Of a DNA stretch of 64,000 bases, positions 17,312-53,368 are shown in pieces. This DNA comes from Mariniflexile litorale (GTDB lineage Bacteria; Bacteroidota; Bacteroidia; Flavobacteriales; Flavobacteriaceae): contig NZ_CP155618.1 of NCBI RefSeq assembly GCF_031128465.2, positions 2,179,501 to 2,243,500 of the forward strand, given 5' to 3'. Under the pieces are notes generated by a model that searched no databases, was not told the origin of the DNA, and saw only the letters and a program-made list of their open reading frames with translations. The position numbers were made by a program, and so were the translations under genes. Position 1 is the first letter of the stretch, and each line of letters begins with the position of its first letter.

Positions 17312-17373
17312 TTAAAACGACGCTTTTAGTGTGATATTAATGTATATCCGAATATAATAAATATTCCTTTTAA

Positions 17374-18324
17374 TTATTTAAATACGACATTCAAAAAATT
17401 AACGGTATAACTAAGCGTTGTTTCGAACCATGGATGCATGAGCCAAAATGAATGTGGACTATCTGGAATGGTATGTGTTTCGGTATAAGTATTATATTTG
17501 TTTAATAATGTCATCATATCATCTCGCCCCGCATGAAAACGAGGTTGTGCACTATTTATAAAAAGGGTAGGAGGCGAGTGTTCATCTACATATTCTAGAG
17601 GCGATGCTTCTTTCCAGTTTTTAAAATTTTCATGTTTTAAACCACTCAGCCAAATACCAGCCATTTTACCCTCGCCGCTTGCTTCGGGATGAATAAATGA
17701 AACGATACCATCTATATTTACTATAGCTTGTACATCATCAGAAATAAAAGAATCAAATCCATAAACAGATGAATTTGGAGTCACCCCAATTAATGTTGCT
17801 AATTGAGCTCCAGCTGAAGCTCCTAAAACAGCTATTTTATCAGGATTAATATGATGTTTTTTCGCGTTTTTTCGCATCCACCTAATAGCATCTTTTAAGT
17901 CGATAACGCCTGCAGGGTATGGCGCTTCAAATCCTAATCTATAAGAGACAGAAATACCTACATAGCCATTTAAGGCTAAATGTTGAGCCATCACACGTTC
18001 ATTCTCTTTACTGCCAACCAACCATCCGCCACCGTGAATTAATAAAACGGCTGGATACGTTTTGTTACTATCTCTTCCTTTAGGAATGTAAACATCAAGT
18101 TTTAATTTTGAGCTATTAGTTTTTTTATAAACTATGTTTTCTTTTGATTTTATTTCCTTTGATTTTAAAGGCTCAATAGGTGTAATAAATGGATGGTCTT
18201 TTTTTAATTTTTGATAAGTTGTTTCAATAGTATATGGCGAATAAGTTGGTTTTTCTTGAGCAAAAACATTGCTTATTATAAAAAATATAAAAATCAAACA
18301 TGTTATTTGTTTTAATATTATCAT
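17374..18324 (-). CDS. Alpha/beta-hydrolase esterase (BD-FAE / acetylesterase-like)
   Basis: A 316-residue exported hydrolase with a signal peptide ending NVFAQ. It shows the oxyanion motif HGGGW, the nucleophile elbow GASAG (residues ~168-172) and a C-terminal His in PDSPHSFW. These are hallmarks of the BD-FAE/esterase-lipase group, which includes enzymes removing acetyl or feruloyl groups from plant polysaccharides. Its start overlaps the stop of the upstream GH28 gene by four bases (ATGA), so the two are probably translationally coupled. In this operon, removal of O-acetyl groups from pectin is the likely role; the exact ester is not determined. Confidence 0.8.
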   Translation of the reverse strand: MIILKQITCLIFIFFIISNVFAQEKPTYSPYTIETTYQKLKKDHPFITPIEPLKSKEIKSKENIVYKKTNSSKLKLDVYIPKGRDSNKTYPAVLLIHGGGWLVGSKENERVMAQHLALNGYVGISVSYRLGFEAPYPAGVIDLKDAIRWMRKNAKKHHINPDKIAVLGASAGAQLATLIGVTPNSSVYGFDSFISDDVQAIVNIDGIVSFIHPEASGEGKMAGIWLSGLKHENFKNWKEASPLEYVDEHSPPTLFINSAQPRFHAGRDDMMTLLNKYNTYTETHTIPDSPHSFWLMHPWFETTLSYTVNFLNVVFK

Positions 18325-40168: not shown

Positions 40169-41017
40169 ATGCAAAAACGTTTTTCAGGAGTTGTGGTGCC
40201 AATGATAACACCGCTTAATAAAGATTATACAGTTGATGTTACTGCTGTTGAACGTATTGTAACACTTTTTGCTGAAAATGGCATTCACCCGTTGGTGCTA
40301 GGTACTACTGGCGAGTGTAGTTCAATTAATGAATTGGAAAGTCTTAGATTGGTTGAAGCGGCTGTTAAAGCTAAAGGTGAAAATCAAAATATTTATGCGG
40401 GACTCGTAGGTAATCAAGTGGGGGATTTGATAATAAGAGGTAATCAATATATCAATTTGGGTGCCGATTGCGTGGTAGCAACATTACCATCATATTATGG
40501 TTTAACTCCTAAACAAATGGCTCATTTTTATAAAACATTAGCAGATAAAATCCATGGGCCACTGATGATGTATAACATCAAAGCCACAACTCAAATGACC
40601 ATTCCATTGGAAGTGGTAACCGAGTTATCTTCACATCCAAATATTTGGGGGTTAAAAGATTCTGAGCGTGATATAGAACGTATGGAGTTTCTCATCAAAA
40701 CATATAAAAACAATCCAGAATTCTCATATTTCTGTGGCTGGGGAGCACAAAGTGCAGGGAGTTTGAAGTTTGGAGCCGATGGTATTGTACCTAGTACAGG
40801 AAATTATGTGCCAGAAATGTATAAGAAATTATATGCTGCTGCTTTAAATGAAGATTGGAAAATTTGTGATACTTGGCAAAATGAAACAGATATTGTCGCG
40901 CAACAATATCAAAAAGATAAAACTTTAGGCGAATCGTTAGCAGTTTTAAAATCATTGATGCATAAAAAAGAATTATGCAACAAAACCATGATGCCACCAT
41001 TAACCGAGGTGGAATAA
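40169..41017 (+). CDS. DapA-family (DHDPS/NAL) aldolase or dehydratase
   Basis: A 282-residue cytoplasmic class I aldolase-fold enzyme. It has GVVVPMITPLNKDYTVD at the N terminus, the family GTTGECSSI block, the catalytic Tyr in GPLMMYNIKA and the Schiff-base Lys in IWGLKDSERD. The family covers dihydrodipicolinate synthase, N-acetylneuraminate lyase and 2-keto-3-deoxy sugar-acid aldolases and dehydratases. Its place at the head of a sugar-acid cluster, followed by a symporter, argues for cleavage or dehydration of a 2-keto-3-deoxy acid rather than lysine biosynthesis. The exact substrate cannot be read from sequence. Confidence 0.85.
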   Translation: MQKRFSGVVVPMITPLNKDYTVDVTAVERIVTLFAENGIHPLVLGTTGECSSINELESLRLVEAAVKAKGENQNIYAGLVGNQVGDLIIRGNQYINLGADCVVATLPSYYGLTPKQMAHFYKTLADKIHGPLMMYNIKATTQMTIPLEVVTELSSHPNIWGLKDSERDIERMEFLIKTYKNNPEFSYFCGWGAQSAGSLKFGADGIVPSTGNYVPEMYKKLYAAALNEDWKICDTWQNETDIVAQQYQKDKTLGESLAVLKSLMHKKELCNKTMMPPLTEVE

Positions 41018-41045
41018 ATCAAACCAACTAAAAAACTAAATTATT

Positions 41046-42581
41046 ATGCTAAACATTCATTGGATAGATATCGTTATAGTAATCGTATCTGTATTATTTA
41101 CACTAGGAGCTGGCTTTTATTTTGCAAGTAGACAAAAAAGCTCCGACCAGTATTTTTCAGGAAGTAAAACCATACCGGCTTGGGCAATTGGAATTTCTAT
41201 TTTCGCAACTTTAATAAGTAGTGTTACTTTTTTAGCGTATCCGGCAGCGGCTTATAAATCAAATTGGATTTTATTAGTGCAAGGTTTAATGGTTCCCATT
41301 GTATTGGTGGGGTTAATATGGATTATTGTACCCTTATTCCGTAAAGTGATTCGTTTAAGTACTTATGAATATTTCGAGCGTCGTTTTGGAGTGTTTGCAC
41401 GTATGTACAGTTCTGTCGCCTTTATATTAACGCACTTCTCAAAAATGGGTACGGTGCTTTATTTAGTTAGTTTAGCCTTGGCAACCTTAACGGGTTTAGA
41501 CGTGACTACTTATATTTTAATGCTTAGTGTTATTATTATATTACTAACGCTACTTGGTGGTATGGAAGCTGTAATTTGGATGGATGTTATTCAAGGTTTT
41601 TTATTAATAGGAGGCGGATTGCTGTGCGTAGGTATTTTACTTTTTAATTATGAAGGTGGGGCAGGAGACATGCTAAGTGAAGCTGTAACTAGAAAAAAAA
41701 TAGATTTCGGACCGTATGATTTTAGTTTTACTGAATTAACTTTTTGGGTATTAGTTGTTAACGGTGCCTTTTACGCATTACAAAAATATGGAACCGATCA
41801 AACCATCGTACAAAGATATTTAGCAGCCAAAAACGATAAAGATGCTAAAAAAGCAGCCTACATTGGAGTGTTTGCTAGTGTACCAGTTTGGGCATTGTTC
41901 ATGTTAATAGGCTCGTTGTTGTTTGTGTTTTATAACTCTGGAGGCGCTGCATTACCTGAAGGTATTAATGCAGATCAAACTTTTACTTATTTTATAGGAA
42001 CTGAGTTACCAGTTGGTGCTGTTGGCTTAGTATTGGCAGCGTTAATCGCAGCAGCAGTTTCTAGTTTAGATTCTGATATGAATTGTTTAGCAGCAATTGG
42101 TGTAGAGGATTTTTACCAACGTTTCAAGCCTAATTGTACGGATAGAGACCGATTGGTTGTGGGTCGCTTATTAGTTTTGTTTTCAGGAATAGCCATGTCA
42201 GGAGTAGCGTTATTATATGCAGCTTGGGATGGTGAAGGTGTTCTAGGTGTTGTATTTCAATTGTACGCTATTTTTTCAGCAGGGATCGTAGGAATATTTC
42301 TTTTAGGATTATTCTCAAGAAGAGCTAATAAACAAGGTCTGTATGTAGGTTTAGCTGTATGTGTCGCTTTTACAGCTTATGCCGTATTAACAACCACAAA
42401 AATTGGTGGTGCAGTAATTTTAGATTTAGGAAACTATAATTTTCCGCAGCATAAATATATGTTAGGGGTTTATAGTCATTTAATAGTATTGGTAGTAGGT
42501 TATTTTGCTAGCTTTTTATTTAAGTCTGAAAAGGTAGATGACAGTTTAACATTCTACGGATATTTAAAACAAAAGAACTAA
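41046..42581 (+). CDS. Sodium:solute symporter (SSS family)
   Basis: A 511-residue polytopic inner-membrane protein with about 13 hydrophobic segments. It starts MLNIHWIDIVIVIVSVLFTL and contains SSDQYFSGSKTIPAWAIGIS and AAAVSSLDSDMNCLAAIGVE, typical of SGLT/SSS transporters. It lies 28 bases after the DapA-family gene and is presumably co-expressed. Such symporters often bring in monosaccharides or uronic/sialic-type acids released by polysaccharide loci. With the downstream acid-sugar enzymes, a sugar acid is a reasonable but unproven cargo. Confidence 0.9.
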   Translation: MLNIHWIDIVIVIVSVLFTLGAGFYFASRQKSSDQYFSGSKTIPAWAIGISIFATLISSVTFLAYPAAAYKSNWILLVQGLMVPIVLVGLIWIIVPLFRKVIRLSTYEYFERRFGVFARMYSSVAFILTHFSKMGTVLYLVSLALATLTGLDVTTYILMLSVIIILLTLLGGMEAVIWMDVIQGFLLIGGGLLCVGILLFNYEGGAGDMLSEAVTRKKIDFGPYDFSFTELTFWVLVVNGAFYALQKYGTDQTIVQRYLAAKNDKDAKKAAYIGVFASVPVWALFMLIGSLLFVFYNSGGAALPEGINADQTFTYFIGTELPVGAVGLVLAALIAAAVSSLDSDMNCLAAIGVEDFYQRFKPNCTDRDRLVVGRLLVLFSGIAMSGVALLYAAWDGEGVLGVVFQLYAIFSAGIVGIFLLGLFSRRANKQGLYVGLAVCVAFTAYAVLTTTKIGGAVILDLGNYNFPQHKYMLGVYSHLIVLVVGYFASFLFKSEKVDDSLTFYGYLKQKN

Positions 42582-42604
42582 TTTAGTAGTAGTTAATTTT
42601 AAAA

Positions 42605-43753
42605 ATGAATTCAATCACATTATTACAACCCGGAAAAATTGTATTTGGAGAACATGTATTAGCGGAACTTTCTAATGAGCAAATAGTATCCCATTCAAAC
42701 AAAATACTCTTCTTGGTTGCAACACCGTTACTTGATGCTGTTGCTTCAATAATAGAAAATTTGCAGTCAGAAAACAAAGACGTCATATGTGTAGAATATA
42801 AGTTTTTGGGAGAGCCCACTTTTGCCCAGTTCAATTCATTATTGGAAAAGTGCGAAGGATTCAATCCTGATTGTGTTATAGGAGTTGGAGGCGGCAGTGT
42901 TTTAGACTGTGGAAAATTATTAGCAGCTTTAATAAATAACACCCAAAAATTAGAAGATATAGTTGGTATAGGTTTTTTAAATGGAAGAAAAATAAAACTC
43001 ATTTGTATTCCAACAACATCAGGAACGGGTAGTGAAGTATCACCTAATGCGATTTTATTAAACGAAGATACCCAAGCTAAAAGTGGTATTATTAGTCCGT
43101 TTTTAGTGCCAGATGCTTGTTATCTCGATCCTGTATTAACGATTAGTTTACCAGCTAAATTAACAGCCGAAACGGGAATTGATGCCTTGTCGCACTGTAT
43201 TGAAGCCTACACCAATAAATTTGCGCATCCAACGGTTGATACCTATGCATTAAAAGGAATCCAACTTATATCTGAAAATCTTCAAAAAGCATATGAAAAT
43301 GGAAATGATATAGAGGCACGTTCTGCGTTATTGTTAGGCTCCATGTATGGCGGTTTGTGTTTAGGGCCTGTAAATACATCGGCAGTTCATGCATTGTCTT
43401 ATGGATTGGGTGGAAAATTCCATATTGCTCATGGACTTTCAAATGCCATTTTAATGCCAGAAGTATTGCGTTTTAATTTATCCGCAAATCCAAAGCGTCA
43501 TGCTGAAGTAGCACGTGGCTTAGGAGTAACTATGATAGGTACAGATGAAGAAGTAGCATGGGCTGGAATAGAAAAAATTGAAGGCTTATCAAAAGGATGT
43601 AATATTCCGCAACGATTAACAGAAATTGGTATTACTGAAGACGTATTGCCAGAATTAGCAGATATCGCCATGAAAGTAACGCGATTATTAAAAAATAATC
43701 CACGAGAAGTTACTAGAGAAGATGCTATAGCGATTTATGAGAAATTGCTTTAA
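42605..43753 (+). CDS. Iron-containing (group III) alcohol dehydrogenase
   Basis: A 382-residue NAD(P)-dependent dehydrogenase of the FucO/DhaT/maleylacetate reductase type. The cofactor region has GVGGGSVLDCGK and IPTTSGTGSEVSPN. Metal ligands are visible in GIDALSHCIEAY and the later His of HALSYGLGG and HIAHGLSN. FucO-type enzymes reduce lactaldehyde from deoxy-sugar breakdown, while other members oxidise or reduce hydroxy-acid semialdehydes. Pairing with a DapA-family aldolase would suit disposal of the aldehyde product. This is inference from neighbourhood. Confidence 0.88.
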   Translation: MNSITLLQPGKIVFGEHVLAELSNEQIVSHSNKILFLVATPLLDAVASIIENLQSENKDVICVEYKFLGEPTFAQFNSLLEKCEGFNPDCVIGVGGGSVLDCGKLLAALINNTQKLEDIVGIGFLNGRKIKLICIPTTSGTGSEVSPNAILLNEDTQAKSGIISPFLVPDACYLDPVLTISLPAKLTAETGIDALSHCIEAYTNKFAHPTVDTYALKGIQLISENLQKAYENGNDIEARSALLLGSMYGGLCLGPVNTSAVHALSYGLGGKFHIAHGLSNAILMPEVLRFNLSANPKRHAEVARGLGVTMIGTDEEVAWAGIEKIEGLSKGCNIPQRLTEIGITEDVLPELADIAMKVTRLLKNNPREVTREDAIAIYEKLL

Positions 43754-43764
43754 AAAGAAACAAA

Positions 43765-44790
43765 ATGAAACCAAAAATAGGAATCTCGATGGGCGATCCA
43801 GCAGGAATTGGCCCAGAAATAATTATAAAAACATTAGCATTAAAAGACCTTTACAGTCGATGTAGTCCTTTGGTTGTTGGTGATGCTGAAACCATGCAAA
43901 ATGAAGTAAATGCATTAAAATCATCATTAAAAATAAACGCCATTGAAAATGTAAATGATGCCAAGTTTGAACATGGCACCATTGATGTCTTCGATTTAAA
44001 GAATGTCAATAATAGCGAGTTAAAACCAGGAGTTGTAACAGCTATGGCAGGAAAAGCAGCTTTTGAAGCGGTTATAAAAAACATCGAATTAGCCTTAGCC
44101 AACAAAATTGATGCTACCGTTACAGCACCTATAAATAAAGAATCTATTCATAAAGCTGGACATAAATATTCAGGGCATACCGAAATTTATGCCGATTATA
44201 CAAATACCAAAAAATTCGCCATGCTTTTGGCTGACGAAAACTTTAGAGTCATTCACGTAAGCACCCATGTATCGTTGCGTCAAGCCTGCGATTTATGTAA
44301 AAAAGACCGTGTATTTGAGGTAATCACTTTATTGGATGATGCTTGTAAAAAGTTCGGAATAGAAAACCCAAGAATAGCTGTTGCAGGATTGAATCCACAT
44401 GCAGGTGAAAATCAATTATTTGGTGATGAAGAAGTTGATGAAATCATTCCAGCTATAGAACAAGCTAATAAATTAGGTTATACCGTTGAAGGGCCATTTC
44501 CTCCAGACACCATGTTTGTTAAAGCGGTTCAAGGAAAATTTGATGGATGTATTGCCATGTACCACGACCAAGGACATATTCCTTTTAAACTAGAAGGTTT
44601 TAAATGGGATAATGAAAAGGAAACAATGAAAAGTGTAAAAGGTGTAAATATTACATTGGGTTTGCCTATTATTCGAACTTCAGTAGACCACGGAACCGCT
44701 TTTGAGATTGCGGGACAAGGTATTGCTTCGGCAGACGCTATGTTAGTTGCTATTGATTATGCCATTGTTATGGCGAAACACAAAAAATAA
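43765..44790 (+). CDS. pdxA: PdxA2-like 4-phospho-threonate/erythronate-type dehydrogenase
   Basis: A 341-residue member of the PdxA family with GISMGDPAGIGPEII, HKAGHKYSGHTEIYA, GLNPHAGENQLFGDEE and AMYHDQGHIPFKLEGF, including the metal-binding His residues. True PdxA acts in vitamin B6 synthesis. PdxA2 proteins beside DUF1537 kinases act in catabolism, oxidising and decarboxylating 4-phospho-D-threonate or erythronate to dihydroxyacetone phosphate. The stop overlaps the start of a DUF1537 gene by one base (TAATG), so the catabolic assignment is favoured. Confidence 0.9.
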   Translation: MKPKIGISMGDPAGIGPEIIIKTLALKDLYSRCSPLVVGDAETMQNEVNALKSSLKINAIENVNDAKFEHGTIDVFDLKNVNNSELKPGVVTAMAGKAAFEAVIKNIELALANKIDATVTAPINKESIHKAGHKYSGHTEIYADYTNTKKFAMLLADENFRVIHVSTHVSLRQACDLCKKDRVFEVITLLDDACKKFGIENPRIAVAGLNPHAGENQLFGDEEVDEIIPAIEQANKLGYTVEGPFPPDTMFVKAVQGKFDGCIAMYHDQGHIPFKLEGFKWDNEKETMKSVKGVNITLGLPIIRTSVDHGTAFEIAGQGIASADAMLVAIDYAIVMAKHKK

Positions 44791-45947
44791 TGATTTTTGT
44801 TTTAGCAGATGATTTAACTGGTGCAGCTGAAATGGCTGGAATATGTCTTCGCTATGGATTAGATGTTTCGTTTGGAATTGATACCATTCCTGAAAAAGAA
44901 GCGACTGTTAATATTATAGCAACAGATACGCGTTCGATGACAGAGGATGAAGCGTATGAAGTTCATTTTCATTTAGCCGAAGAAATAATTTCAAAAAAAA
45001 ATTATACTATATTTAAAAAATGCGATTCGGTATTGCGTGGTCATGTTCTAACGGAGCTTTCAGCATTAATAGATGTAACAGAGAAAAATAGTATTTTACT
45101 GCAACCTTCAAATCCAGAGGGGAGTCGTTGTATTGAAAAGGGAATTTACTGGGTAAATAATGATCTTATAGAAAACACTGGATTTGCTGCCGATCCAGAT
45201 TTCCCTGCTAAAACATCACAGGTTAAAAATCTGGTTCTGGATAGAACTACCAAGAAATCTCATGTTGAAGTTTTTTCAGGTGTTTTTCAAGCTATAAATT
45301 CAAAAGGCATCTTTATTCCAGATTGTGATTCTGTAGAAGCATTATCAAAATGTATTAATTTATATAATGAAGAGATGATTATTGGAGGAAGCGCTGCTTT
45401 TTTTGAACAATTTCTCATTAAAAAGAGATTAGTAACTTCGAAAATAAACAATAAAACACAAAGCTTTTCAGAAAATTATATGCTCCTTTCAGGAAGCGCA
45501 CATCCCGAAAGTATCCGTTTTTCAAAAACTCTTGAAATTGCAAAATGTCCTTTAATTGTTTTTACTAAAAGTCTTTTAGAGCATGAGTTTAGTGAGGCTG
45601 CTATAAATGACTTTGTAGTGAATATGTCTAATATTTATAACGAAAATAAAAAAATCGTTTTAAGAATTTCCAATACGGTTATTCAATTTGAAAATAGGTC
45701 TTTAAACCTGAAAAACAGAATGAGTTTAGTAGCAAAAAGATTTTTAGAAGTTTCTAGCGTTAACGAACTTTTTATTGAAGGTGGTGCAACCGCTTATGAT
45801 GTTCTTGAAAAACTAAATTGGCAGTCGTTTACACCTATTGAAGAGTTAGCTCTTGGTGTTGTACGGATGCAATATGATAAAAACCCTGACAGGTTTATTA
45901 CCATAAAACCGGGTAGTTACCAATGGCCAGAAGGATTATTAAATTAG
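44790..45947 (+). CDS. Four-carbon acid sugar kinase (DUF1537; OtnK/DtnK-like)
   Basis: A 385-residue kinase with the family N-terminal motif LADDLTGAAEMAG, KKCDSVLRGHV and LLQPSNPEGSRCIEKG. The C-terminal nucleotide-binding part has LLSGSAHPESIRFSK and IEGGATAYDVL. Family members phosphorylate threonate, erythronate and related short aldonic acids. Together with the overlapping PdxA2 gene it forms the known kinase-dehydrogenase pair that converts a four-carbon acid to a triose phosphate. The usual third partner (a class II aldolase or isomerase) is not adjacent, which leaves room for a variant substrate. Confidence 0.9.
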   Translation: MIFVLADDLTGAAEMAGICLRYGLDVSFGIDTIPEKEATVNIIATDTRSMTEDEAYEVHFHLAEEIISKKNYTIFKKCDSVLRGHVLTELSALIDVTEKNSILLQPSNPEGSRCIEKGIYWVNNDLIENTGFAADPDFPAKTSQVKNLVLDRTTKKSHVEVFSGVFQAINSKGIFIPDCDSVEALSKCINLYNEEMIIGGSAAFFEQFLIKKRLVTSKINNKTQSFSENYMLLSGSAHPESIRFSKTLEIAKCPLIVFTKSLLEHEFSEAAINDFVVNMSNIYNENKKIVLRISNTVIQFENRSLNLKNRMSLVAKRFLEVSSVNELFIEGGATAYDVLEKLNWQSFTPIEELALGVVRMQYDKNPDRFITIKPGSYQWPEGLLN

Positions 45948-45975
45948 TATATCTAAATTGATTAAGAAATAATAA

Positions 45976-47115
45976 ATGATAACATTAAAAGGAATCGCTT
46001 GGAATCATACGCGGGGTTTTACTTCGGTAGTAGCAACAGCACAACGATTTGAAGAGCTAAATCCTGATGTAAGAATTACATGGGAAAAACGCTCGTTACA
46101 AGCTTTTGCAGATGCTTCTTTAGGTGAGTTAACAGCTAATTACGATTTGCTGATTATGGATAATCCACATGTGTCAATTGCTGCAAGGGATAAAGTGTTA
46201 TTATCTTTTGACGATTATTTAGATGCTGCATTTTTAAAAGAATTAGCCAATAATAGCGTTGGAAAATCGCATGCTAGTTATCATGTGAATGGTAAGCAAT
46301 GGACGTTGGCAACTGATGCTGCAACACCCATTGCAACTTGGAGAGAAGATTTGGTAAGTAAATACAATGTGCAAATCCCTAAAACTTGGGAAGAGTTGAT
46401 GAAGTTGGCAAAAACAGGAAAAGTGGCGTTTGCTTCCATACCAATTGATACGTTGATGCATCATTTTATGATGTGTATTGCCTTAGGAGCTGAGGTTTTT
46501 GAAAGCAAAACGGAAGTGGCACCACGCCAAATAATGATTGAAGCCATCAAAACCTATAAAGAATTATTAGATTTAGCACCGTCGTTTTGTTTAGAAATGA
46601 ATCCTATTAAGGTTTATGAACGCATGACGCAAACCAATGATATTATTTACAGTCCGTTCAATTATGGCTATTCAAATTATTCGAAAAAGAATTATGCCGA
46701 CCATGTTTTAAAAGCAGGAGGTTTGGTAACTTTTAATGGAAAACGACTGCGTTCTACCTTAGGAGGTGCTGGTATTGCAGTATCTTCAAAAACAAAACAT
46801 GCTGAAATTGCCATGAAGTATGCAGAATTTATAGCTTCAGAAAAGGTTCAATCAGGTTTGTATTTCGAATTTGGAGGGCAACCAGGACATAGAAAGTCAT
46901 GGTTAGATGAAGGTGTGAATAAACAATGTAAAGACTTCTTTAAGGATACATTACAAACTTTAGATGAAGCTACCATGCGTCCGCAATATTATGGCTATAT
47001 GCATTTTCAAGATGAAGCAAGTCCTGTAATTCATGAAGCTATTTCTGGAAAAACATCCATAGAAGCTGCGGTAGATAAGATGAATGAAATCTATAAAGAA
47101 TCTTTAACACATTAA
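45976..47115 (+). CDS. Solute-binding-protein-like protein without signal peptide (A)
   Basis: A 379-residue protein of the family 1 extracellular solute-binding fold. It begins directly with the first beta-strand (MITLKGIAWNHTRGFTSVVA), with no signal peptide or lipobox and no upstream in-frame start that could add one. Typical blocks are FEELNPDVRITWEKRSLQAF, the PKTWEELMKLAKTG hinge block and GGAGIAVSSKTKHAEIAMKY. No ABC permease or ATPase gene is present in the window. It should stay in the cytoplasm. It sits between the DUF1537 kinase and two CoA-transferases and may be an enzyme subunit, ligand carrier or sensor. Confidence 0.8.
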   Translation: MITLKGIAWNHTRGFTSVVATAQRFEELNPDVRITWEKRSLQAFADASLGELTANYDLLIMDNPHVSIAARDKVLLSFDDYLDAAFLKELANNSVGKSHASYHVNGKQWTLATDAATPIATWREDLVSKYNVQIPKTWEELMKLAKTGKVAFASIPIDTLMHHFMMCIALGAEVFESKTEVAPRQIMIEAIKTYKELLDLAPSFCLEMNPIKVYERMTQTNDIIYSPFNYGYSNYSKKNYADHVLKAGGLVTFNGKRLRSTLGGAGIAVSSKTKHAEIAMKYAEFIASEKVQSGLYFEFGGQPGHRKSWLDEGVNKQCKDFFKDTLQTLDEATMRPQYYGYMHFQDEASPVIHEAISGKTSIEAAVDKMNEIYKESLTH

Positions 47116-47121
47116 ACAAAT

Positions 47122-48267
47122 ATGAAGCCATTAGAAGGTTTATTGGTTTTAGAATTTGCCCAATTTTTGGCGGGTCCTTCGGCAGGTTTAAAATTGGCCG
47201 ATTTAGGCGCACGTTTGATTAAAATTGAGCGTCCTGTAAAAGGAGAGGCTTGCAGACAATTAAGTATTAAAGATTTGTTTGTAGATGAAAGTAGTATGCT
47301 ATTTCATACCATCAACCGAAATAAAGAATCCTTTGCTGCCGATTTAAAGAATCCAGATGATTTAGCGCAAGTAAAAAAACTAATCGCTAAAGCAGATATT
47401 ATGACTCATAATTTCCGCCCAGGCGTTATGGAAAAAATAGGCTTGACGTTTGAAGATGCTTTCGCCATCAACCCCAAAATTATTTACGGTGTTATTACTG
47501 GTTATGGCGAAAAAGGGCCTTGGGCAAAAAAACCGGGACAAGATTTATTAATACAATCGCTTTCGGGTTTAACTTGGTTGAGTGGAAAAAGCAGTCAAGG
47601 GCCTGTGCCTTTTGGTTTGGCGGTGGCCGATTTAATGTGTGGTAATCATTTTGTTCAAGGCATTTTAGCAGCGTTACTTAAACGAGCTAAAACTCGAAAA
47701 GGTGTTCTGGTTGAGGTGAGTTTGTTGGAGTCTATTTTAGATGTTCAGTTTGAAGCCATCACCATATTTTTAAACAATGGAGGCAAATTAGCCGATAGAG
47801 GAAATGTTCGCGGTAGTGCTCACGCCTTTTTAAGTGCGCCTTACGGAATTTACGAAACCAGCGATGGCTATTTAGCATTGGCAATGGGCGATTTACTTTT
47901 ACTAGGAAGTATTCTTGATGTTGATTTAAGCAAATACACCAATAAAAAAACATGGTTTAGGTCGCGTGCAGCCATTCGGAAAATATTAAGTAAAAAAATA
48001 ATTACCAAAGATTCAGATTACTGGATTAAAGCTTTGCGTGAAAAAGGGATGTGGTGTGAAAAAGTGTCAGATTATAACGATTTAAATAGCCAACCTTTCA
48101 TCAACGATTTACAGTTGAAACAAACCGTTAAAAATTTTGAAGGAAAAGAAATGCTAACGACGAGACTTCCAATAAAGTTTGATGAAACTATTTTAAGTAG
48201 TGCTAAAGCAGCACCAAAAGTAGGAGAAGATAATGAGAAGATTTACGAACAATTTTTAAATAATTAA
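47122..48267 (+). CDS. CaiB/BaiF family (class III) CoA-transferase 1
   Basis: A 381-residue CoA-transferase with LVLEFAQFLAGPSAGLKLAD, GARLIKIERPVKGEACRQLS, INRNKESFAADLKNPDD and the GLAVADLMCGNHFVQGILAA block, which holds the expected catalytic Asp. It starts 6 bases after solute-binding-like protein A, and its stop overlaps the next CoA-transferase start by one base (TAATG). These enzymes move CoA between carboxylic acids through acyl-enzyme anhydrides. Two tandem paralogues suggest a heteromer or two related acid substrates. A CoA thioester step is unexpected in a sugar-acid locus. Confidence 0.9.
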   Translation: MKPLEGLLVLEFAQFLAGPSAGLKLADLGARLIKIERPVKGEACRQLSIKDLFVDESSMLFHTINRNKESFAADLKNPDDLAQVKKLIAKADIMTHNFRPGVMEKIGLTFEDAFAINPKIIYGVITGYGEKGPWAKKPGQDLLIQSLSGLTWLSGKSSQGPVPFGLAVADLMCGNHFVQGILAALLKRAKTRKGVLVEVSLLESILDVQFEAITIFLNNGGKLADRGNVRGSAHAFLSAPYGIYETSDGYLALAMGDLLLLGSILDVDLSKYTNKKTWFRSRAAIRKILSKKIITKDSDYWIKALREKGMWCEKVSDYNDLNSQPFINDLQLKQTVKNFEGKEMLTTRLPIKFDETILSSAKAAPKVGEDNEKIYEQFLNN

Positions 48268-49400
48268 TGAAACCATTAGAAGATTATTTAATAGTAGATT
48301 TTAGTCAGTTTTTGTCTGGACCATCAGCGAGTTTACGTTTGGCAGATTTAGGAGCTAGAGTTATTAAAATTGAAAAACCTGGAACAGGTGATATCTGCAG
48401 AACGCTGTATACTTCCGATTTAATAATGAATGGTGAGTCGTCTATTTTTCATACCATCAATAGAAATAAAGAATCCTTTGCAGCCGATTTTAAAAATGCA
48501 GAAGATTTGAAAATCATAAAGAAATTATTGGCTAAAGCCGATGTCGTGATGCATAATTTCAGACCCGATGTTATGAAACGTATTGGTTTAAGTTATGATG
48601 ATGTAAAAGCTATCAACCCAAAAGTGATATATGCTGAAATTTCAGGTTATGGCAATCATCCCGATTTAAAGGATAAACCCGGTCAAGATTTATTGTTACA
48701 ATCCATGACTGCCTTAACATGGTTAACAGGCAACCAAAATGACGGTCCGGTGGCTATGGGATTATCCATTGTCGATATGTTGGCAGGTGCTCATTTGGCA
48801 CAAGGTATTTTAGCGGCGTTGTATAGAAAAACAGTCAATGATGCTGGTGCTTTGGTGCAGGTGAGTATGCTAGAATCTGCTATCGATTTTCAGTTCGAAA
48901 CCATCACCACGTTTTTTAACGATGGCGGCGAATTACCAGTACGAACCAAAAGCAACAATGCCCATGCGTATTTAGGCGCGCCGTACGGCATTTATAAAAC
49001 CAATAATGGTTTTTTAGCCTTGGCTATGGGGTCTATTCCTGTGTTGGCACAACTTTTAAAATGTGATGCTTTATTGCAATTTTCTGAAAATAAATTTGGG
49101 TTAAGAGATAAGATTAAAAAAGTATTAGCAACACATCTTAAAACCCAAAACACAGATTATTGGCTAGCCATTTTAGAACCTGCCGATATTTGGTGTGCTA
49201 AGGTTTTAAATTATCAAGAGCTTTTTGAGGAAGAAGGATTTAAAGTTTTAGATTTTGTTCAGAAAGTCACGATGGGCGATGGGTATTCGTATGAAACAAC
49301 TAGATGTCCTATAAAAATTGATGGTGAATTGTTTATTTCTGAAAAAGGTTCGCCAAAACTTGGTGAGCACAACAAGAAAATTTTAAAGGAGTTAATGTAA
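48267..49400 (+). CDS. CaiB/BaiF family (class III) CoA-transferase 2
   Basis: A 377-residue paralogue of the preceding gene, clearly related along its length (IVDFSQFLSGPSASLRLADL, INRNKESFAADFKNAED, GLSIVDMLAGAHLAQGILAA). It also retains the putative catalytic Asp. Both proteins share the unusual KESFAADLK/FK block and similar C-terminal ends (KAAPKVGEDNEKIYEQ against KGSPKLGEHNKKILKE). They look like an old tandem duplication whose two products are kept active. The next gene starts at the base after its stop, so translation is probably coupled. Confidence 0.9.
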   Translation: MKPLEDYLIVDFSQFLSGPSASLRLADLGARVIKIEKPGTGDICRTLYTSDLIMNGESSIFHTINRNKESFAADFKNAEDLKIIKKLLAKADVVMHNFRPDVMKRIGLSYDDVKAINPKVIYAEISGYGNHPDLKDKPGQDLLLQSMTALTWLTGNQNDGPVAMGLSIVDMLAGAHLAQGILAALYRKTVNDAGALVQVSMLESAIDFQFETITTFFNDGGELPVRTKSNNAHAYLGAPYGIYKTNNGFLALAMGSIPVLAQLLKCDALLQFSENKFGLRDKIKKVLATHLKTQNTDYWLAILEPADIWCAKVLNYQELFEEEGFKVLDFVQKVTMGDGYSYETTRCPIKIDGELFISEKGSPKLGEHNKKILKELM

Positions 49401-50624
49401 ATGGATAAGATAAGAATCGCCGTTCGGAAATTTGAACCTTTTGAAACGACTTTAAAAAAGTTGTGGGACGCATTTAGTGTTGAAAATAATTTAAATATGG
49501 AAGCAGAAATGATTCCGTTGGAACTTCACGATTTATATGAAGAAACGCTCACTAAAAAAGGCTTGCAAAATGGCGATTGGGATATTGCTCACATAAACAC
49601 CGACTGGATTTTTGATGCTGTAAATTCTAAGGCCGTTGAAAATTTATCACCATTAATTGCTCAAAATCCACCTCAAAATTTTCCAGAAGGTTGGCATGAA
49701 TCATTATTGCACCTTCAAGAAATAAATAATCAAGTTTACGGCTTACCATTTCACGATGGGCCAGAATGTTTAATTTATAGAAAGGATTTATTTGAAGATA
49801 TTTCAGAAAAAGAAAACTTTAAAAATCAATATGGTTACGATTTGCAACCACCAAAAACTTGGGAACAATTCACTCAAATAGCTGAATTTTTCAACAGACC
49901 AAGTGATAATCTTTACGGTTGCGTCTTTGCAAACTATCCCGATGGTCACAACATGGTATTCGATTTTTGCTTACAATTATGGACACGTGGCGGTTCGTTA
50001 TTACATGACAATAATCAGATAAATATTAACAAACTAGAGGCAATTCAAGCATTGGATTTTTACAGACACATAGTAAACAATCCAAAAACAACACATCCCA
50101 AATCTAAAGAATTTGGCTCGGTAGAAGCAGGTATGGCATTCGCAACTGGAGAAGCAGCTATGGCAATAAATTGGTTTGGGTTTGCATCCATGTGCGAAGT
50201 TATTGAAGCTTCCAAAGTAAAAGGAAAGGTTGATATTGCAGAATTGCCACATGATGAAAACCAAAACTCAGCTTCGTTAAATGTCTATTGGTTATATACC
50301 ATAGGTTCGGGGAGCAAACATAAAAATATAGCTTACGATTTTTTAAGATTTGCGACGACACCTCAAAGTGATAAACTGTTAACCAATGAAGGCGGTATCG
50401 GTTGTAGAAAATCTACTTGGAATGATACTGAAATCAATAAAACCATTCCGTATTATCACAAGTTAAGCATGCTTCATGAAAATGCACTAACGCTGCCACA
50501 AACTCCTGTATGGCCAAAAGTAGCTGAATTAATAGATTACATGGTACTAAAAGCTATTGATAGCAAAATACCTTCAGCTCAATTGTTAGAAGAAACTCAA
50601 AAGAACATTCAAAAAATAATATAA
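49401..50624 (+). CDS. Solute-binding-protein-like protein without signal peptide (B)
   Basis: A 407-residue second family 1 solute-binding-like protein, only distantly similar to protein A. It too begins at the mature fold (MDKIRIAVRKFEPFETTLKK) with no signal sequence. Recognisable blocks are GDWDIAHINTDWIFDAVNSK, QVYGLPFHDGPECLIYRKDL and PPKTWEQFTQIAEFF. It starts immediately after CoA-transferase 2 and two bases before the Gfo/Idh gene, so an export signal has not been lost to a misplaced start. A cytoplasmic role tied to the CoA-transferases is the simplest reading, but its biochemistry is unknown. Confidence 0.8.
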   Translation: MDKIRIAVRKFEPFETTLKKLWDAFSVENNLNMEAEMIPLELHDLYEETLTKKGLQNGDWDIAHINTDWIFDAVNSKAVENLSPLIAQNPPQNFPEGWHESLLHLQEINNQVYGLPFHDGPECLIYRKDLFEDISEKENFKNQYGYDLQPPKTWEQFTQIAEFFNRPSDNLYGCVFANYPDGHNMVFDFCLQLWTRGGSLLHDNNQININKLEAIQALDFYRHIVNNPKTTHPKSKEFGSVEAGMAFATGEAAMAINWFGFASMCEVIEASKVKGKVDIAELPHDENQNSASLNVYWLYTIGSGSKHKNIAYDFLRFATTPQSDKLLTNEGGIGCRKSTWNDTEINKTIPYYHKLSMLHENALTLPQTPVWPKVAELIDYMVLKAIDSKIPSAQLLEETQKNIQKII

Positions 50625-50625
50625 A

Positions 50626-51696
50626 ATGACTGTTACTTACAAACCATTATTGCCAGAAACTGAGCAGCCCATTATCATTATTGGTGCTAGCGGTATTGTA
50701 AAAGATGCACATTTACCAGCTTATAAAATGGCAGGATTTAAGGTGTTTGGAATAACAAATCGTACCATGTCTAAGGCGCATGATATGGCAAAAGCGCATA
50801 ACATTCCAAATGTATTTAAAAATGTTGCTGAAGCTGTAAAACATGCTCCTAATAATGCGGTTTACGATATTACCGTGTTGCCAGACCAATACATAGAAAT
50901 TTTAGAACAATTACCAGATGGAGCAGCTGTGCTCATTCAAAAACCAATGGGTAATGATTATAAGCAAGCCAAAGAAATTGTTGCAGTTTGCGAACGGAAA
51001 AATTTGGTGGCAGCCATCAATTTTCAATTGCGATTTGCATCGTTTGTAAGTGCTGCAAGAAATATGATTGATCAAGGACTTATTGGTGATTTGTACGATT
51101 TAGAGTTTAAAGTTACCGTAAACACGCCTTGGGAATTATTCCCAGTAATTAAACAACACCCACGATTAGAAATCTTATTTCATAGTGTACATTATATCGA
51201 TTGTATTCGCTCTTTTTTAGGTAATCCAAAAGCAGTTATGGCAAAAACGTGGAAGCATCCTTTAAAAGATTTATCCTCATGCCGTTCAACCATTATTCTA
51301 GATTATGGCGATACATTAAGTGTAAAAATAAACACCAACCACGACCATAATTTTGGACAGAAACATGAAGAAAGCTACATCAAATGGGAAGGAACCAAAG
51401 GCGCTATTATAGCAAAAATGGGTTTGCTTATGAATTACCCAGAGGGCTTACCTGATGCTTTTGAATATGCAATAGCACAAGAAGGAAAAGCCTATGAATG
51501 GAAAATGCTTAATTTAGAAGGTTCATGGTTTCCAGAAGCATTTGTCGGTACTATGTCAAACTTAATGCGTTTTAAAGAAGGTTCAGATAAAGTGTTGCAT
51601 GCGAGTGTTCAAGATGTTTTAAATACCATGAAAGTGGTTGAGGCATGTTATATAAGCAATAACAACGGAGGTGTTGAAATTGAGGATTTGAATTAG
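50626..51696 (+). CDS. Gfo/Idh/MocA-family oxidoreductase
   Basis: A 356-residue NAD(P)-dependent oxidoreductase. The Rossmann motif is IIIIGASGIVKDAHLPAYKM. The family EKP motif appears as IQKPMGNDYKQA, with Gln in place of Glu. The C-terminal beta-sheet domain carries HSVHYIDCIRSFLGNPKAVM. Family members oxidise or reduce hydroxyl groups of sugars, sugar acids, inositols and sugar nucleotides. In this cluster it could open the pathway by oxidising a sugar-acid hydroxyl. Its stop codon forms the first base of a repeat element at 51696. Confidence 0.87.
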   Translation: MTVTYKPLLPETEQPIIIIGASGIVKDAHLPAYKMAGFKVFGITNRTMSKAHDMAKAHNIPNVFKNVAEAVKHAPNNAVYDITVLPDQYIEILEQLPDGAAVLIQKPMGNDYKQAKEIVAVCERKNLVAAINFQLRFASFVSAARNMIDQGLIGDLYDLEFKVTVNTPWELFPVIKQHPRLEILFHSVHYIDCIRSFLGNPKAVMAKTWKHPLKDLSSCRSTIILDYGDTLSVKINTNHDHNFGQKHEESYIKWEGTKGAIIAKMGLLMNYPEGLPDAFEYAIAQEGKAYEWKMLNLEGSWFPEAFVGTMSNLMRFKEGSDKVLHASVQDVLNTMKVVEACYISNNNGGVEIEDLN

Positions 51697-51776
51697 GGCG
51701 TTACCACAAGGGTCGGGCTTTACGCTACAATCTTTTGCAGAAAAAGCAAAAGGATTTTCACTACAATCCCTAACGC
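51696..51776. repeat. Flavobacterial intergenic palindromic repeat element
   Basis: An ~81-base element bounded by inverted GCGTTA (51698-51703) and TAACGC (51771-51776). An inner imperfect stem pairs AATCTTTTGC (51729-51738) with GCAAAAGGATT (51746-51756), and CTACAATC is repeated directly at 51725 and 51761. It begins at the last base of the Gfo/Idh stop codon. I recall dispersed elements of this look from flavobacterial genomes, but I cannot count copies here; only one is in this window. It is more GC-rich than the surrounding sequence. Confidence 0.6.
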
Positions 51777-51840
51777 ACAATGGAACTATAAAAACAACTT
51801 AACAAATAAACAATTCAACGATTCAATAAATAAAGAGACT

Positions 51841-52284
51841 ATGTATTTCAAATCAACATTTTTCGAAGATTATCAATTAAACGAAAAACGAGTAACCTTA
51901 GGAAGAACCATTACCGAAACGGATTTTGTAGTGCATGCTGGACATACAGGTGATTTTTTTCCGCATCACATGGATGAAGCATGGTGTAAAACACAGCCAT
52001 TCGGACAGCGTATAGCACACGGCACCATGATTTTTAGTATCGGAATTGGTCTAACAGCATCAGAAATAAACCCAGAAGCCTTTTCAAAAGGTTACGACCG
52101 TTTGCGTTTTGTAAAACCAGTGCATATTGGTGATACGATTCATTCAGAAATTACCATTTCAGATAAAGCAGATGCAAAAAGACCAGAAATGGGTACGGTT
52201 ACTGAACATGTAGAAATCATCAATCAAAAAGGCGAAGTTGTATTGGTTTGTGATCATTTGCTTCTCGTGAAAAGAAAATCTTAA
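51841..52284 (+). CDS. MaoC-like (R)-specific enoyl-CoA hydratase/dehydratase
   Basis: A 147-residue hot-dog-fold protein. The MaoC catalytic signature is visible in [20 protein letters not shown] followed by [15 protein letters not shown], with the Asp and His expected for hydration or dehydration of a CoA thioester. It follows the palindromic repeat after a 64-base gap and precedes the RhaT-type gene by 34 bases. With the two CoA-transferases it suggests that a CoA-bound hydroxy or enoyl acid is an intermediate in this cluster. Confidence 0.88.
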
Positions 52285-52318
52285 AATCTTACAACTAACC
52301 AATTAAATTTAGACTAAA

Positions 52319-53368
52319 ATGAGTACACCAAATTCTTTAATAGGAACGCTTCTTCATGCAGTAGGAGGTATTTCAGCAGCAAGTTGTTATTTACCTAGCA
52401 CCAAAACAAAGGGGTGGTCGTGGAATACGTTTTGGTTAGCACAGTCTATTTTTGCATGGTTAATAGTGCCTTTAATATTAGCATTGTTAACGGTGCCAAA
52501 CTTCTTTTCTATTATAGCAGATGCTCCATCAAAACCTTTTTGGATGGCTCTTTTTTTAGGCGGTATTTATGGCTTTGGAGGGATGTCTTTTGGTAAAGCT
52601 ATAAATCACATAGGCTATTCTTTAACCTATACGATTGCTATTGGTATTTCAGCCGTAGTGGGTACTATCATGCCGCTAATGGTTTTTGGTGGTTTGGGAG
52701 ATTTCTTTACGAAACCAGGAGGTAGTATTGTGCTTTTAGGGATGCTATTATCTATCGTAGGCGTTGTTATTTGTGGATGGGCTGGCTTTAAAAAAGAAAA
52801 GGATCTGGCAAAAGAAAAGCTAAATAAAGCAGGGTTTAATATGATGTTGGGTTTGGGGTTAACCATTATTGCTGGAGTCCTATCAGGAGTGTTTAATTTA
52901 TCATTAGAATACGGACAGCCTATTGCAGATATGGCAGCCGAAAATGGTGCTGGACAATTTGAAGGAAATGCGAAACTCGTAGTGTCTACTTTAGGATGTT
53001 TTATTGTAAATTTTATATGGTATATCGTTGTTGGTTTTAAACAAAAAACGATAATAGAATTTTTGCCTAATAAAAACGAAAATAGAGAAACTAAAAGCAA
53101 CCTTCTTAGAAACTGGTTATTGTCTTCTCTAACAGGCTCGTTATGGTGTTTGCAATTTTTCTTTTACGGATTGGGGCATGTAAAAATGGGAGCGTATCAG
53201 TTTGCTAGCTGGGTATTACACATGTCTATGCTTATTTTCTTTAGTTACATAGTAGGTGTGATTATGAAAGAATGGAAAAATGTTAAAAAAGAAACCTATG
53301 TTATTCTACTTGTTGGATTGGTTGTGTTAATTGTGTCGTTTTGTGTTACGAGCTACGGGAGTTATTAA
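52319..53368 (+). CDS. rhaT: RhaT-family L-rhamnose/H+ symporter-like transporter
   Basis: A 349-residue inner-membrane protein, close to the length of enterobacterial RhaT (about 344). It has around ten hydrophobic segments. It starts STPNSLIGTLLHAVGGISAA and contains FGGMSFGKAINHIGYSLTYT and FFFYGLGHVKMGAYQFASW, which match RhaT-type carriers. L-rhamnose is abundant in rhamnogalacturonan I, so rhamnose uptake is plausible. The neighbours are not rhamnose isomerase, kinase or aldolase genes, so another sugar or sugar-acid ligand remains possible. It ends the compact cluster. Confidence 0.85.
   Translation: MSTPNSLIGTLLHAVGGISAASCYLPSTKTKGWSWNTFWLAQSIFAWLIVPLILALLTVPNFFSIIADAPSKPFWMALFLGGIYGFGGMSFGKAINHIGYSLTYTIAIGISAVVGTIMPLMVFGGLGDFFTKPGGSIVLLGMLLSIVGVVICGWAGFKKEKDLAKEKLNKAGFNMMLGLGLTIIAGVLSGVFNLSLEYGQPIADMAAENGAGQFEGNAKLVVSTLGCFIVNFIWYIVVGFKQKTIIEFLPNKNENRETKSNLLRNWLLSSLTGSLWCLQFFFYGLGHVKMGAYQFASWVLHMSMLIFFSYIVGVIMKEWKNVKKETYVILLVGLVVLIVSFCVTSYGSY

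Follow-up and report, generated by a model that had tools for sequence, protein, structure and literature searches.

Signal-less solute-binding proteins and class III CoA-transferases in a recurrent sugar-locus gene unit: a possible CoA-dependent route for sugar acids

Does a compact run of sugar-acid and CoA genes in Mariniflexile litorale encode one catabolic pathway, or do separate functions lie side by side in it? The window analysed here is the whole stretch of 64,000 nucleotides (NZ_CP155618.1, positions 2,179,501 to 2,243,500), and the cluster in question occupies its positions 40169 to 53368. The original prediction, made from the letters of the DNA, took the cluster as a possible undescribed pathway in which a pectin-derived acid is processed partly as a CoA thioester. 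Its description of the layout is correct: twelve genes, all on the + strand, follow each other with gaps of 28, 23, 11, -1, 28, 6, -1, 0, 1, 144 and 34 bp (10 of 11 at most 34 bp), the one-base overlaps at 44790 and 48267 are confirmed, and the family assignments agree with the Pfam and NCBIfam profile results. The cluster is probably two functional modules side by side and not one pathway, because a core unit recurs across phyla while the upstream genes join it in only 4 of 102 distinct loci.

The stable core is SBP1-CoT1-CoT2-SBP2-Gfo-MaoC, namely two solute-binding proteins (SBPs), two class III CoA-transferases (CoTs), a Gfo/Idh/MocA oxidoreductase and a MaoC-family hydratase, often with the sugar transporter RhaT or FucP. 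SBP1 was searched in 199 genomes of the family, of which 17 matched at E 1e-3, and in 395 genomes of the phylum, of which 43 matched at E 1e-3 (19 strong, E ≤1.6e-104; the others weak, E ≥2.6e-11). We compared 34 regions and 80 named loci, and as the latter are the best 80 of 565 confirmed SBP1 relatives, the locus counts lean towards close relatives. Removing 6 regions with SBP1 below 42% identity and 6 duplicates from these 114 left the 102 distinct loci, 95 of them covered by at least 6 kb of upstream sequence. By record names, the core unit spans Bacteroidota, Verrucomicrobiota, Acidobacteriota, Chloroflexota and Pseudomonadota, including Sinorhizobium meliloti, and SBP1 relatives with a CoA-transferase also occur on a Streptomyces plasmid. 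The symporter (SSS), iron-type alcohol dehydrogenase (FeADH), PdxA2 and kinase genes stand beside it only in L049, L050, L083 and L084, and distant DapA matches (26–28% identity) are found further in L089 and L103. The window gene order is thus beyond chance, since it is kept in these four other genomes, but the kinase, PdxA2 and CoA genes cannot be taken as a single twelve-gene pathway in the general case.

A class III CoA-transferase is present in 98 of 102 distinct loci, and no more than 250 bp separate it from SBP1 in 99 of 104 CoT-bearing loci (duplicates included). Four of 108 loci lack it: L096 and L099 are short contigs, L121 has a neighbouring CoT just beyond the stretch examined, visible in L233, and the fourth is L070. 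The last, from genome G474, is the clearest exception, with an SBP1 of 46% identity, an adjacent IclR gene and no CoA-transferase in 19.6 kb.

Joint presence and absence in the genus Flavobacterium give the boundaries of the unit. Of 239 genomes, 35 contain SBP1, and exactly these 35 contain MaoC; Gfo, located between the two genes, is present in 37. The two Gfo-only genomes are G756 and G787; a third unit-less case, G395, comes from outside this set of 239. At the locus all three keep Gfo, FucP, a Zn-dehydrogenase, fucose dehydrogenase and an amidohydrolase, while SBP1, CoT1, CoT2, SBP2 and MaoC are absent, and in G787 SDR and FAH are absent as well. The absence of SBP1 holds genome-wide in all three, that of MaoC genome-wide in G756 and G787, and that of CoT1, CoT2 and SBP2 at the locus. 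The Gfo and FucP trees (17 rows) need at least two changes, most simply losses. As all five genes are missing together where Gfo is kept, SBP1, CoT1, CoT2, SBP2 and MaoC behave as a single unit, and Gfo persists in its absence.

SBP1 (45976–47115) belongs to the SBP_bac_1 family, and its structure model (pLDDT 95.1, pTM 0.91) has the MalE-type two-lobed fold. The best Foldseek matches are MalE3 (4e-22) and SmoF (1e-21), with TM scores of 0.84–0.86 to sugar-bound structures, and 69 of its 379 positions do not vary among 31 sequences. SBP2 (49401–50624; PF01547, 90 bits) was assigned to the two-lobed fold by Pfam only. The earlier description of two solute-binding-like proteins therefore holds for the family and for the SBP1 fold, but neither protein has a signal sequence, and both begin straight away with sequence of the mature type. 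The best 11-residue hydropathy within their first 40 residues is 0.67 and 0.25, compared with 2.48–3.23 for six presumed exported proteins of the window, a crude yardstick by which the presumed-cytoplasmic Gfo reaches 2.3. None of 100 SBP1 relatives and none of 37 SBP2 relatives (370–412 aa, duplicates included) reaches 2.0 at the N-terminus. No ABC permease or ATPase for these proteins was detected by Pfam among the window cluster genes, and where a sugar ABC operon is nearby, as in six plasmid records, its transporter is served by a separate SBP gene. In 2 of 102 loci (L050, 11937–14213; L083, 13430–15709) a single uninterrupted reading frame of 759–760 codons covers both SBP2 and Gfo, a possible natural fusion, and because of this shared frame the sequences hint that SBP2 and Gfo may touch each other.

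CoT1 (47122–48267; PF02515, 290 bits) and CoT2 (48267–49400; PF02515, 303 bits) are 49.7% identical, and the CoA_transf_3 domain spans residues 4–371 and 4–369, respectively. Both contain Asp170, which we take to be the catalytic aspartate of Frc-family CoA-transferases, and it is kept in 81 of 81 CoT1-type and 107 of 107 CoT2-type proteins (188 of 188 in total; 330–470 aa). The closest solved protein to CoT1 is succinate-hydroxymethylglutarate CoA-transferase (171 bits), and the score against CaiB is 50 bits. MaoC (51841–52284; PF01575, 74.5 bits) carries GDFFPHHMD, presumably the GDxxPxHxD-type motif of MaoC hydratase 2. The motif is kept in 48 of 53 MaoC proteins, the five misses being paralogues of 37–39% identity. 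The solved protein 4ffu, against which MaoC scores 218 bits, is named only "oxidase", and plasmid-borne Sinorhizobium copies are 67–69% identical among the matches listed. With these residues conserved, the CoA chemistry proposed at the outset is likely.

The unit occurs in two architectures. MaoC (at least 50% identity) is present in 59 of 102 loci and crotonase in 32, with both in 3 and neither in 14; crotonase is thus found in 29 of the 43 MaoC-less loci. The two types were split by MaoC versus crotonase, and the other gene columns were not used for the split; the loci are related by descent, and Fisher p-values for these contrasts are not independent tests. CoT is found in every locus of both types (56 of 56 MaoC-only and 29 of 29 crotonase-only). 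In contrast, Gfo is found in 54 of 56 MaoC-only loci versus 2 of 29 crotonase-only loci, a RhaT/FucP transporter in 48 of 56 versus 2 of 29, lactonase in 26 of 56 versus none of 29, and aldehyde dehydrogenase in none of 56 versus 28 of 29. The crotonase-only loci, whose agar-type neighbours are partly annotated, have a GH2 gene in 20 of 29, an agarase-type gene in 10 of 29 and one or the other in 22 of 29; such neighbours are found in none of the 56 MaoC-only loci. The split fits a ring sugar needing a lactonase on one side and a non-lactonising aldehyde such as 3,6-anhydrogalactose on the other. A pathway specific to pectin, as first suggested, is not borne out: depending on the organism, the unit neighbours agarase/GH2, fucosidase, fucose-pathway or pectin genes. 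A more distant architecture (L062–L066; SBP1 32–36%) has an MFS transporter and, in several of the five loci, a beta-propeller lactonase, crotonase, UxuA-like and RraA-like genes; it is probably for another sugar.

What might the unit do? A tentative reading, to which we give somewhat less than an even chance, is that a sugar acid is activated as its CoA thioester and loses the C3 oxygen by beta-elimination, which would replace or accompany the aldonate dehydratases. The sugar would enter via RhaT (FucP elsewhere) and be oxidised at C1 by the Gfo/Idh enzyme, followed by lactone opening, for which a lactonase is available in many MaoC-type loci. CoT1 and CoT2 would make the aldonate CoA thioester, and the acidified C2 proton would let MaoC (or a crotonase, mostly in agar-type loci) remove the C3 oxygen and so form a 2-keto-3-deoxy acyl-CoA, from which CoA may be handed to the next aldonate. 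SBP1 could be a cytoplasmic binding subunit that presents the sugar or sugar acid to the transferases, and SBP2 another one, perhaps presenting substrate to the Gfo dehydrogenase. Cleavage of the product would fall to an aldolase, here DapA, or elsewhere to SDR and FAH hydrolase. For this scheme we infer the reaction, the substrate, the SBP function and the order of every step. In its widest form, which we consider rather less likely than not, cytoplasmic MalE-fold proteins would deliver sugar acids to class III CoA-transferases in a widespread route, with dehydration or ring-opening taking place on CoA thioesters; the beta-eliminase would be MaoC in 6-deoxyhexonate-type loci and crotonase in 3,6-anhydrogalactonate-type ones.

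The usual substrates of MaoC hydratases and class III CoA-transferases are fatty, branched or dicarboxylic acids, and the closest solved CoT is succinate-hydroxymethylglutarate CoA-transferase. It may be, then, that the substrate of the two enzymes is not a sugar acid but an acyl substituent or an overflow acid, with the SBPs as sensors or chaperones and the sugar genes as mere neighbours. We regard this as quite improbable, as the RhaT/FucP and Gfo counts of the MaoC-only loci and the sugar-binding-protein fold of SBP1 speak against it. For activation of a sugar acid, the nearest precedent is the dehydration of carnitine by CaiB, a class III CoA-transferase, and CaiD, a crotonase. There, as in our proposal, the acid is activated by the transferase, a CoA-dependent hydratase carries out C2–C3 elimination, and CoA is recycled. 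The core unit differs in its substrate family, in having MaoC instead of crotonase in most loci and in its additional cytoplasmic SBPs and sugar dehydrogenase/lactonase, and CoT1 is only weakly similar to CaiB. A CoA-transferase and a MaoC hydratase also work together in itaconate degradation (Ict, Ich and the lyase Ccl). However, the RipB/Ich model gives 48 bits for the window MaoC, below its cut-off of 340, and no citramalyl-CoA lyase is recognised in the cluster, which has a sugar transporter, a sugar dehydrogenase and SBPs instead.

The dehydratase role is best judged where fucose-pathway genes surround the unit, as in Flavobacterium, some Verrucomicrobia and rhizobia. The non-phosphorylative L-fucose (diketo) pathway runs through fucose dehydrogenase, lactonase, fuconate dehydratase, KDF dehydrogenase and FAH hydrolase. 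Its first steps are also named in PMC11378808. In Flavobacterium the unit adjoins L-fucose dehydrogenase (NF052481, 357 bits, cut-off 300), FAH (NF053535, 368 bits, below the cut-off of 500), fucP (TIGR00885, over cut-off), an SDR and a fuconolactonase-type amidohydrolase (NF052480, 113 bits for the L095 member, below the cut-off of 400), and no dehydratase is found beside it in these loci. Second FAH loci in the genus (L198–L200, L209, L210) have a UxaA/AltD-type dehydratase and no unit. In genome G529 the unit lies with fucose dehydrogenase, a lactonase-type amidohydrolase, SDR and FAH, and the locus contains no dehydratase. A genome-wide search of three dehydratase families in G529 gave the baseline PF13378 proteins (two matches near 100 bits and one near 28, which we take to be dipeptide epimerase, MenC and enolase), one PF00920 and one PF04295 protein. 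The PF04295 protein sits in a Uxa-type operon with Uxa-/Kdg-type genes (named by eye), and no other candidate was recognised in these families outside that operon. Baseline-only PF13378 is found in 9 of 28 unit-bearing genomes. Together, G529 and the second FAH loci are the best support, from gene content, for a putative aldonate dehydratase role of the unit.

Several observations weigh against this role. Of 8 proteobacterial plasmid records, two of them from S. meliloti, 6 carry an annotated L-fuconate dehydratase close to the unit; FucD/ACI/UxaA/IlvD-like genes lie within the examined stretch in 11 of 102 loci, and FucD is present in L090, L092, L095 and L161. Because dehydratase genes share the neighbourhood, the unit is not a simple replacement in those loci, and as a universal L-fuconate dehydratase replacement it is ruled out for proteobacteria. 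G395, which has no unit, retains fucose dehydrogenase, lactonase, SDR and FAH, and the only dehydratase recognised in it is the one in its Uxa operon. It is because of these nearby fuconate dehydratases and G395 that our confidence stays tentative. No lactonase was recognised among the window cluster families. The verrucomicrobial versions L088, L090 and L095 have a single SBP and a single CoT, so the CoT1/CoT2 partnership is not essential. Finally, the SBP role is a guess, and the frame shared by SBP2 and Gfo could mean that Gfo, and not the CoA step, is what SBP2 serves. Separately, gene c44 of Verrucomicrobia was considered as the missing piece and set aside; it is FucD-like by eye and has a 71% match (L177, G340) in the enolase-family search.

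The coexistence with ordinary dehydratases leads to another explanation: the same CoA chemistry may act on another sugar acid, one released alongside and not accepted by ordinary dehydratases (such as O-methylated, anhydro or epimeric aldonates), with the unit working beside a canonical dehydratase. The proteobacterial records and FucD-bearing loci above would agree with this, as would the sugar route retained without the unit in G395 and G756 and the separate loci and OiaK/OiaX-like pair of the M. litorale genome described below. On the other hand, minimal operons such as L088 of Rubritalea (Gfo-RhaT-SBP1-CoT-amidohydrolase-MaoC) look like a route without another dehydratase, and G529 has no recognised dehydratase outside its Uxa-type operon. 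On balance we give it a somewhat lower chance than the reading proposed above.

Which substrate, then, would the cluster serve in M. litorale? Standard Uxa/Kdg genes were noted as absent, which is true for the window but not for the genome: UxaC, UxaB, a UxaA-type gene and a TRAP transporter lie at about 2.112–2.120 Mb of the same chromosome (galacturonate locus L226), about 60 kb before the window; the N-termini served to name UxaC, UxaB and TRAP by eye. The missing genes are uninformative because they sit elsewhere, and a galacturonate route argued from their absence is rejected. The genome (G000) also has an AltD-type fucose locus (L193) with fucose dehydrogenase, lactonase, KDF dehydrogenase and FAH, and RhaEW-type rhamnose gene(s) (L225); neither fucose nor rhamnose seems to need the window cluster, a further point against the proposed role. 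L-rhamnose as a substrate entering via RhaT is weakened: among 38 genomes (28 with SBP1 and 10 of the genus Flavobacterium without; G011, G044, G152 and G153, with SBP1 at 32–34%, were left out), the bifunctional RhaD-type aldolase/dehydrogenase TIGR02632 is over cut-off in 22, G000 included. This gene adjoins RhaI-/RhaB-looking proteins (by eye), and RhaA (PF06134) is absent in 38 of 38. Because the genome has separate loci for these sugars, the cluster most likely serves something other than galacturonate, fucose-type or rhamnose use.

Two more sugar-acid regions were seen in this genome. At 4.365–4.385 Mb (L227), a full-length second DUF1537 kinase stands beside a RuBisCO-like protein; their best NCBIfam models are OiaK (415 bits) and OiaX (492 bits), neither of which reaches the cut-off of 700, and the pair suggests a putative apionate use. 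At about 409 kb (L224), a second IlvD/EDD-family dehydratase (15945–17663 of that locus) lies with UxaC-like (by eye), RraA-like and UxaA C-domain-like genes, a further putative sugar-acid locus.

The upstream module starts with a DapA/NAL-superfamily aldolase of 282 aa (40169–41017; PF00701, the DHDPS family, 139.5 bits), whose solved relatives are DHDPS (up to 99 bits) and YagE, a 2-keto-3-deoxy-galactonate aldolase (77 bits). It is followed by the SSS-family sodium/solute symporter (41046–42581; PF00474, SSF, 145 bits; TIGR00813, 230.8 bits, cut-off 184) and FeADH (42605–43753; PF25137/PF00465), which reached no NCBIfam equivalog cut-off and whose solved relatives are 1,3-propanediol oxidoreductase (195 bits) and lactaldehyde reductase (about 160 bits). 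The PdxA protein (43765–44790; PdxA, 361 bits) is nearer to the PdxA2-type structures 2hi1 and 6e85 (291–296 bits) than to PdxA 1ps6 (189 bits), and D-threonate-4-phosphate dehydrogenase is among its three best solved relatives. It passes the general TIGR00557 (357 bits, cut-off 290), while NF002891, D-threonate-4-phosphate dehydrogenase, stays at 349, below its cut-off of 583. The DUF1537-family kinase of 385 aa (44790–45947; PF07005, 107 bits) is diverged: its C-domain PF17042 scores 25.9 bits, below the cut-off of 28.3, and its best NCBIfam match, D-threonate kinase NF047819, gives 90 bits, below 450. The ADDLTG and KPG-type motifs are present by eye, and among full clusters the kinase is less conserved (52–69% identity) than its neighbours (75–96%).

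DtnK and PdxA2 reportedly form a D-threonate/D-erythronate pathway, described by Zhang et al. in 2016. The cluster resembles it in that the probable PdxA2-type gene adjoins the DUF1537 kinase with a one-base overlap, and differs in its additional aldolase, FeADH and symporter and its short, diverged kinase. By analogy, the kinase and PdxA2 would turn a tetronate into dihydroxyacetone phosphate (DHAP) as in the D-threonate route, and DapA and FeADH may supply the tetronate. One specific candidate is the catabolism of 3-deoxy-D-lyxo-2-heptulosaric acid (Dha) of rhamnogalacturonan II. After import by SSS, DapA would yield pyruvate and D-threuronate, FeADH would give D-threonate, and the kinase and PdxA2 would release DHAP and CO2. 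This would account for all five genes at once; given the Dha configuration and the DtnK/PdxA2 route, the Fischer projection gives D-threonate as the four-carbon product. The D-threonate kinase model tops the kinase's NCBIfam matches, D-threonate-4-phosphate dehydrogenase is near PdxA2, and an OiaK/OiaX-like pair is also in the genome. However, both D-threonate models are below cut-off where the general pdxA passes, no rhamnogalacturonan-II-specific hydrolase was recognised in the window (the only part of the genome searched for them), and a plain threonate/erythronate route would explain kinase and PdxA2 alone. We consider the Dha route improbable.

The remaining cluster features are Gfo, probably a sugar dehydrogenase (50626–51696; PF01408, 39.8 bits), and the RhaT-family sugar-proton symporter (52319–53368; PF06379, 177 bits; NF010024, 303.5 bits, below the cut-off of 468). 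The 144-bp gap before MaoC contains a Flavo-1 RNA match (51707–51791, - strand; RF01705, 59.6 bits, cut-off 42). The same gap holds Flavo-1 in L049 (14254–14410, -), L061 (14220–14301, +) and L079 (14218–14300, +), and probably, judged by position, in L084 (15749–15891, -), and none in L050, L072 and L083. Since it is present on either strand, its behaviour is that of a mobile repeat with a preferred site, not that of a fixed regulator. An ECF sigma factor gene lies 360 bp before the cluster start, RhaT is followed after 347 bp by the next listed frame, and pectin-type genes (PF09492, GH28, GH43) lie downstream.

Every part of the cluster belongs to a known family, and what is apparently undescribed is the joint occurrence, within sugar loci, of cytoplasmic SBPs with CoA-transferases and a hydratase. 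In this the original prediction agrees with the open-licence full-text literature, which leaves out most subscription journals and in which no description was found. The genes of the L-fucose diketo pathway surround the core unit in the groups named above; its fucose dehydrogenase, lactonase, KDF dehydrogenase and FAH are not among the window cluster families by Pfam. That literature gave no version of the pathway with CoA-transferases, MaoC or cytoplasmic SBPs, and we know of none.

Current annotations such as "extracellular solute-binding protein" and "CoA transferase" say nothing about the job of the unit. If the proposal is true, it would add a CoA-dependent branch to sugar-acid catabolism, as an alternative to the enolase-type, IlvD/EDD and UxaA-type aldonate dehydratases, explain sugar loci without a dehydratase, and give the SBP fold an intracellular, non-transport role. 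As the unit is present in Sinorhizobium meliloti, the question is testable in a genetic model.

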